Shown: positions 13,213 to 62,661 of the stretch, in pieces | Layout: each line of letters starts with the position of its first letter | Position numbering within the stretch: the first letter of the stretch is position 1 | Assembly: GCA_028714315.1 (NCBI GenBank) | Contig: JAQTMN010000003.1 | Coordinates: 1 to 64,000 of the forward strand | Length of the DNA: 64,000 nucleotides | Direction: 5' to 3' | From: Sulfuricella sp. | GTDB taxonomy: Bacteria > Pseudomonadota > Gammaproteobacteria > Burkholderiales > Sulfuricellaceae | Notes under the pieces: model-generated | Told to the model about the DNA's origin: nothing | Database searches by the model: none | Seen by the model: the letters and a program-made list of their open reading frames with translations, nothing else | Position numbers and translations under genes: made by a program

Positions 13213-13298
13213 TCCGAATAAATAACTTGCAGTTTAAACAAGCCATTCATTCCGCGACACTGCCCAAATGGGCTACGGCGCCAAACGACGGATAAAGT

Positions 13299-13692
13299 TG
13301 GTCGCGAAAAGGCACAAAAAGCACAAAAAGGTTTCTCCCTTCTCCCGCAGGCGGGATAACCATCGACTTGGCTGGCGTAGTAGTTTGCCAGCCTAGTCGA
13401 ATGGCTAGTAGTTCCATCAGAAGGGCCGGGGATGAGGGTGTTTGCGTCTTTGCAGGCATTAACCAAGCGCAAAGTCCCTCACCCCAACCCCTCTCCCTGC
13501 ACCCGCACGGAGTGGCAGCAAGCTGCACTCCGACTTTCTATCGACTAAAGTCGATGAAAGATCGTATGTCCCCGCCGGGTTCCCGCTGCTGCGCAGCGAC
13601 CACGGCGAGACGGGCGAGGGGCTATCGCGGGGTGTTCGAGTTTGGTCAGGGCAGGCTTTTTTTTTGTGTTTTTTGTGCCTTTTCGCGGCCAA
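13299..13692. repeat. Composite nested palindromic repeat cluster A
   Basis: Outer arms GTCGCGAAAAGGCACAAAAAGCACAAAAAG / CTTTTTTTTTGTGTTTTTTGTGCCTTTTCGCGGCC enclose host hairpins that are themselves interrupted at 13356..13418 and 13501..13612. Confidence 0.8.
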
Positions 13693-25858: not shown

Positions 25859-25937
25859 GCAACGCTTGCAGTGATGCAAACGCCCTCATCCCCGGCCCTT
25901 CTCCCGCCCACGGGAGAAGGGAGTCGGAGCAGTAACT

Positions 25938-32066: not shown

Positions 32067-32417
32067 TTAGCCGCGAAAAGGCACAAAATTCGCAAAAAGA
32101 AAACAGCCGCTCTTTTTTTGTAACGGCTCAGGTTGGTTTTCTTCCTTCTCCCGCATACGACTCCACGCGGGCTTCAGTCCGCAGTGGATCGGAGTCCTTT
32201 AGGGCAGGCGGGATAACCATCGACTTGGCTGGCGTAGTTTGCCAGCCTAGTCGAATGGCTAGTAGTTCCATCAGAAGGGCCGGGGATGAGGGTGTTTGCG
32301 TCACTGCAAACGTTGACTCTGTGCAAAGTCCCTCTCCCCAACCCCTCTCCCGCCTGCGGGCGAGGGGCTTTAAGCCGTTGGCTCTTTTTGTGGCTTTTGT
32401 GCCTTTTTGCGGCCAAG
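32067..32417. repeat. Composite nested palindromic repeat cluster B
   Basis: Outer arms AGCCGCGAAAAGGCACAAAA / TTTTGTGCCTTTTTGCGGC enclose host hairpins interrupted at 32155..32205 and 32213..32272. Confidence 0.85.
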
Positions 32418-43309: not shown

Positions 43310-43472
43310 CCCTTCTCCCGCATACGACTCCACATGGGCTTCAGCCCATAGTGGATCGGAGTCCTTTAGGGCAGGCGGGAGAAGGGCCGGGGATGAGGGT
43401 GTTTGCATCCCAGAAGCGTCGCCAAAGCGTGCACAGTCCCTCACCCCTGCCCCTCTCCCGCCTGCGGGAGAG
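43310..43472. repeat. Host repeat with 51-bp hairpin insert at 43322..43372
   Basis: CTTCTCCCGC[ATACGACTCCACATGGGCTTCAGCCCATAGTGGATCGGAGTCCTTTAGGGC]AGGCGGGAGAAGGGCC. Confidence 0.88.
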
Positions 43473-62483: not shown

Positions 62484-62661
62484 ACAAGCGCCCTTTCGCG
62501 TTCGCTCCCTCGCCCGCTTGCGGGAGAGGGTTGGGGAGAGGGCAAAACAAGCGCCCTTTCACGTTCGCTCCCTCGCCCGCTTGCGGGATAACCAGCGACT
62601 TGGCGGCTGTGCCGCCTAGTCGAATGGCTAGTAGTTGCATCAGAGGGTGGGGAGAGGGCAA
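62484..62661. repeat. Tandem duplicate of host repeat, second unit interrupted by 54-bp hairpin element (62588..62641)
   Basis: Unit 1 ...CGCTTGCGGG|AGAGGGTTGGGGAGAGGGC; unit 2 ...CGCTTGCGGG[54 bp]AGAGGGTGGGGAGAGGGC. Confidence 0.93.

Follow-up and report, generated by a model that had tools for sequence, protein, structure and literature searches.

Results

Identification and borders of the hairpin

Near 13.36 kb in a 64,000-nucleotide stretch of a Sulfuricella sp. genome (the window), a small hairpin lies between a thioredoxin-domain gene on one side and a SCO1/SenC gene on the other. The question raised by this locus is what kind of element the hairpin represents and by what means it reached its site. 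The first-pass annotation had viewed it as one copy of a single hairpin element, referred to here as E4, that occupies a common junction at three places and keeps its fold while its sequence drifts. Indeed, the copies at 32.2 and 62.6 kb display both the sequence and the junction that had been described. The 13.36 kb copy had been placed at 13356-13418, which is the correct sequence and the same insertion displaced by one base; its exact borders are T13357 and A13419 (Table 1). The final A is part of E4 because copies whose left neighbor is G or C show it (L028, L059, L060, L076, L294, and the G147 set, with an empty site of GGGG^GTGAGG), and with the one-base ambiguity thus settled the element has the form [T/C]A...CATCA. 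With the border placed after the final A, a candidate role for GTnG in selecting a C|A joint was dropped.

The 13.36 kb hairpin is not a chance structure. It matches covariance model R2 with a score of 61.9 bits, and when folded as DNA it has a z value of -3.9, approximately four standard deviations below shuffled sequences.

Table 1 Features of the window relevant to E4
Feature	Positions	Strand	Description
Host repeat cluster	13298-13692		Bounded by 32-nt inverted repeats, 13298-13329 and 13661-13692
E4 copy	13357-13419	+	63 nt, loop 3 nt longer; from empty-site alignment
Hairpin of the 13.36 kb copy	13357-13407	+	Foot TAaCCA/TGGcTA, then CGACT/AGTCG, apical stem GGCTGGC/GCCAGCC
3' tail, 12 nt, GTAGTTCCATCA	13408-13419	+	E4 ends after CA, followed by G
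Empty site, host repeat lacking E4	25895-25910	-	Junction GGCGGG^AGAAGGG; 95% over 205 bp versus 13.36 kb
E4 copy	32214-32273	+	60 nt; between an ABC-transporter ATPase (ccmA-like) gene and ccmB
Empty site for the flanks of the 32.2 kb copy (GGGCAGGCGGGAGAAGGGCCGGGG)	43360-43400	+	Flank match, ~43.38 kb
E4 copy	62589-62642	+	Short form, 54 nt, apical stem of 6 bp; between secD and secF

Fold, covariation, and conserved positions

The base of the E4 hairpin is formed by nucleotide 1, and above it lie conserved mismatches, an apical stem that drifts in sequence, and a conserved loop, GTnnTTT, with a 12-nt tail, GTnGTTNCATCA, extending from the 3' side. Whereas the paired letters drift, the tail and the unpaired positions are kept: A3·C46 in 81 of 82 copies, G7 opposite A41A42 in 76 of 82, and T13·T35 likewise in 76 of 82. 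The most variable base of the tail is the third position of GTnG.

A proposed structure of 17 pairs was evaluated in 45 distinct 60-nt copies. Pairing is maintained in 97.3% of the pair cells, and falls to 10-39% when the partners are slid by one to three columns. Nine pairs contain changes on both sides, with 80 such cells versus 22±4 in shuffles, and the covariation score is 0.346 versus 0.137. Of the distinct apical stems, 36 of 62 are fully paired. The covarying pairs include not only those of the apical stem but also two basal ones, 8-40 and 9-39. The internal stem had indeed been predicted to covary, and these data uphold that claim along with the broader view of one element whose fold is retained. 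The outer sequence, which had been regarded as conserved, is not wholly fixed, for GCGACT/AGTCGAA, ATGACT/AGTCAGA, GCCACT/AGTGGAA, and ACCACT/AGTGGGA are all observed. Given the number of distinct stems, common descent alone is unlikely to have produced the covariation; note that the shuffle controls preserve relatedness.

Which strand folds can be judged from the mismatches, given that a G·T on one strand is an A·C on the other. On the + strand, the apical stems contain 45 G·T versus 8 A·C mismatches, a count free of search bias since the copy set was filtered by basal pairs only. Among distinct stems, and with pair 14-34 left aside, the numbers are 23 and 6 (p = 0.002). Selection thus acts on the E4 + strand folded as a single strand, either ssDNA or RNA. 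A bias with respect to the replication strand, as judged by GC skew, was not significant.

Filled and empty insertion sites

In addition to the empty sites of the window (Table 1), filled sites at L071, L109, L293, and L373 can be compared with empty ones at L062, L365, and L121 and with an E4-free paralogue in L373 (CTCAGACA^GTCCTCGCC). The site in these loci is a conserved repeat, GGCTGCGGAACTCGCGCTNCGCGCTCAGACAGTCCTCGCCGAC, present in several species. A further pair, L139 filled and L104 empty, has orthologous flanks of ~500 bp on either side, with the sequence at the site itself having diverged, and a filled/empty pair is also available for the G147 group. No target duplication is seen in the filled/empty pairs. 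The joint is A^G at 108 of 136 sites against an AG background of 5%, with G^G or A^A at times, and the left flank is conserved just at its last one or two bases. E4 has thus been shown to insert precisely and without target duplication, and copies of it are scattered through many species.

Palindromic repeats, such as CCCGCnnGCGGG^AGAGGG, often act as the host sites. The sequence CCCGCnnGCGGGAGA has 22 matches in the window with at most one mismatch, where 0.5 are expected, although each palindrome may count on both strands. Repeats of the CGTC type also serve as hosts (CGCCGG^AATGACG), and copies of E4 nest in one another at CTA^GTAG or stand in tandem. No gene was found to adjoin E4 recurrently in a meaningful manner.

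The repeat clusters that house two of the window copies, 13298-13692 and 32067-32416, are bounded by inverted repeats of 32-34 nt (GCGAAAAGGCACAAAA...). These clusters had been thought unrelated. This holds for the 62.6 kb context, which is different, but the 13.36 and 32.2 kb clusters are related (91% over ~150 bp), and their two junctions therefore need not be independent insertions. In the closest relative, G007, the two gene matches that flank the 13.36 kb site (89-91% identity) are separated by 39 bp rather than ~455, so the whole 13.3 kb cluster was gained or lost recently. Judging from this orthologous site, the cluster could itself constitute a mobile or composite repeat.

Distribution and variants

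In the genome that contains the window, a 2.92 Mb draft of 148 contigs, a 22-mer pattern allowing up to three mismatches located 22 places (reversed control, 0), and the covariance model counted 23. A search of GTDB genomes with a 19-base pattern gave at least 113 matching stretches. Of the matches listed, nearly all belong to Gallionella, Sideroxydans, Sideroxyarcus, Ferrigenium, Nitrosomonadales, Thiobacillus, Sulfuricella, or Hydrogenophilus, and some are from MAGs labeled just Proteobacteria or Gammaproteobacteria. E4 is, then, a mobile DNA element of ~60 bases that extends across the Gallionellaceae and their relatives. Within the family, it was found in 6 of 22 genomes and was missing from G004 and G014, which are 99-100% complete; such patchy presence is as expected of a mobile element. 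The exact pattern had no match in the viral contigs of IMG/VR, nor did E4 match in plasmid and phage collections. A description of the family, or a name for it, was not found in the literature searched, which covered few subscription journals.

Several variants were observed. A second type of tail, B (TGCAAAGC), occurs at L133, L149, and L161 and in G007. In G147 the foot reads CAGCCA/TGGCTG, and in G020 and G021 a foot of TAAGC/GCTTA is combined with the tail GGGGCTTCATCA. The tail-B copies of G007 lie within a GTAG REP and were amplified along with it. This REP family, GTAGGAGCCCGATT^CATCGGGCGATTGC, is located near a 151-residue RAYT (L182/L259 on contig C15 and L260 on contig C9 of G007), and several of its copies carry E4 tail-B in the loop as an amplified composite REP.

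E4 also serves as a target. Other MITEs are inserted inside copies at L046, L165, L030, and L132; those of L046 and L165 share ends resembling GGAGCCTGTCNGACTT and show an apparent duplication of CTAG, and that of L132 has an apparent TA duplication. At L277 (G197), a near-perfect palindrome, TTGGCATACGACTAGACTGCGTCCT/AAGGACGCAGTCTAGTCGTATGCCAA, is followed by GTAG and is possibly unrelated.

Search for the mobilizing enzyme

Covariance-model and pattern scans revealed no E4 or E4-like hairpin at the ends of the Y1 genes of 14 E4-bearing genomes, in a survey where a few loci end at contig ends and one match was left out. The IS200-type tnpA loci of G236, G206, and G020 had no E4 match, and G265, which is 99% complete, has E4 copies and no Y1 match. 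A RAYT gene flanked by E4 was rejected for the genes seen; the tail-B sequence near the RAYT of L182 is a passenger inside the GTAG REPs of G007. No E4-like hairpin lies near Y2 (IS91) genes, which are present in three of nine genomes, or near the IS110 genes of the two genomes out of nine that have them. None of the loci scanned for end patterns held an autonomous copy with E4 ends, and orphan ends were traced either to truncation or to nested MITEs with duplicated CTAG or TA.

Chromosomal integron integrases with scores of 435-491 bits are encoded in E4-bearing genomes at L393 (G044, contig C5, 126000-139000), L394, and L396. Seven 82-nt attC-like repeats accompany the first of these, and a looser attC-like set the last.

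Discussion

The clean insertion with no duplication, the single-strand fold and its conserved unpaired bases, and the C|T on the complement of the joint are as single-strand transposition by an HUH enzyme would give. Such transposition is known for IS200/IS605 elements and TnpAREP (PMC8266576; PMC6006769), where IS608, ISDra2, and TnpAREP recognize a loop together with mismatched bases and the cleavage dinucleotide of TnpAREP is C|T (PMC8266576). The explanation that we tentatively prefer, at slightly less than an even chance, is that E4, itself non-autonomous, is mobilized as ssDNA by an HUH/Y1 enzyme acting in trans. The + strand would fold as a single strand, and an HUH tyrosine enzyme of the Y1 kind (IS200/IS605 or TnpAREP), supplied in trans, would read the mismatches and the loop. 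It would cut at both ends of E4, on the right 3' of ...CA, and would join the freed strand to an R^G sequence that lies open in single-stranded form, hairpin-forming repeats being favored. Several observations run against this model. None of the Y1 genes examined in the 14 E4-bearing genomes carries E4 or an E4-like hairpin at its ends, and G265 has E4 copies with no Y1 match. A guide tetranucleotide is missing 5' of the foot on the + strand; a CTAG lies beside the foot, on the opposite strand. No replication-strand bias reached significance, and the cut sequence is not shared in full by the two ends of E4 (SA^ in the flank, ATCA^ in the tail). As for the joint, C|T is the complementary reading of A^G, whereas the mismatch counts favor the opposite strand as the folded one.

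It is also conceivable, although we hold it as doubtful, that E4 represents a new class of single-hairpin ssDNA element whose enzyme has not yet been tied to any such element. A blunt-based hairpin with a 12-nt 3' tail, in which one hairpin fixes both borders, is a layout unlike that of IS200/IS605, REP/RAYT, IS91, or integrons.

Folded strands are likewise the substrates of the integron integrase, and a tyrosine recombinase that reads them might move E4 as that integrase does attC. The length of ~60, the variable terminal stem, and the conserved extrahelical bases of E4 are attC-like, and five of the nine E4-bearing genomes encode an integron integrase scoring above the curated cut-off. The own genome, G171, G294, and G265, however, have none above that cut-off. 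The R boxes (RYYYAAC/GTTRRRY) are absent, the borders are not G^TT, and E4 lies outside of cassette arrays; it matches no integron integrase locus, and the attC-like arrays of G044 (L393) differ from it in sequence and length. We judge this route unlikely. Somewhat less likely still is a double-stranded MITE whose transposase, of the DDE or another type, generates either no duplication or one of a single base. DDE-type MITEs with CTAG or TA duplications do occur in the same genomes, and the imperfect terminal complementarity, TAaCCA/TGGcTA, would be in keeping with such an element. Covarying inner stems, however, are needless for the recognition of ends in dsDNA, and the G·T versus A·C asymmetry, the one-sided 12-nt tail, and the lack of a duplication argue against it, as does the absence of an IS110 gene from seven of nine genomes.

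The + strand tolerates G·U, which suits RNA and ssDNA equally, and E4 could in principle have spread SINE-like via an RNA copy of that strand, the fold acting as RNA. Both the 5' and 3' borders are nevertheless exact, as a rule with no A-tract, truncation, or duplication, and no Rfam family reaches its gathering score for E4, just microRNA chance matches lying under threshold. The orientation to neighboring genes, as given by a crude ORF caller, is nearly random (35 antisense-antisense, 20 sense-sense, and 31 mixed), which is evidence against a cis role as RNA. An RNA route is accordingly assigned a very low probability. Finally, E4 might no longer be mobile, its old insertions having been copied with host repeats by gene conversion or composite duplication. 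The 13.36 and 32.2 kb copies share a common cluster, and both the G147 copies and the G007 tail-B copies were amplified inside larger repeats. Yet the contexts of E4 are many and unrelated, with non-repeat sites and other copies of the element among them, and orthologous empty sites exist; loss of mobility is, in our estimation, improbable.

Among known systems, PATEs are palindrome-associated, non-autonomous relatives of IS200/IS605 that have palindromic ends and generate no target duplication. E4 resembles them in all three respects, but each copy is a single hairpin of ~60 nt, and the search turned up no autonomous partner sharing its ends. Non-autonomous IS200/IS605 elements insert 3' of a fixed tetra- or pentanucleotide, also without target duplication. 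REPs and IS608 have a guide tetranucleotide 5' of the foot, whereas the hairpin of E4 starts at nucleotide 1 and thus has none there on the + strand. GTAG REPs and their TnpAREP/RAYT enzymes, of the IS200/IS605 superfamily, share with E4 a small palindrome with a conserved mismatch or bulge, an intergenic location, many copies, and single-strand specificity, and the A^G joint of E4 may correspond to their joining site, C|T, its complement. E4 differs in that it is longer, has a 3' tail, places GTnG 3' of the foot with no GTAG 5' of it, and flanks no RAYT gene in the 14 E4-bearing genomes. With respect to IS91/Helitron-like elements, a 3' hairpin end common to a Y2 element was not encountered at the Y2 genes of the three genomes that have them. 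CGTC REPs (dRS3-like) are, as is E4, dispersed palindromic repeats, and no dedicated transposase has been reported for them (Di Nocera 2013, PMC3733652). Their CGTC/TGTC/CCTC end and stem of 8-9 bp have no counterpart in the E4 alignment, and E4 inserts into CGTC-type palindromes rather than being one.

E4 provides a clear example from nature of a very small mobile element in which the fold of one strand is visibly selected while the stem drifts. Its clean filled and empty sites and many independent copies make the mover of transposase-less hairpin repeats, the CGTC REPs included, directly testable, and numerous intergenic repeats of Gallionellaceae and Sulfuricella-type genomes are explained by the element.
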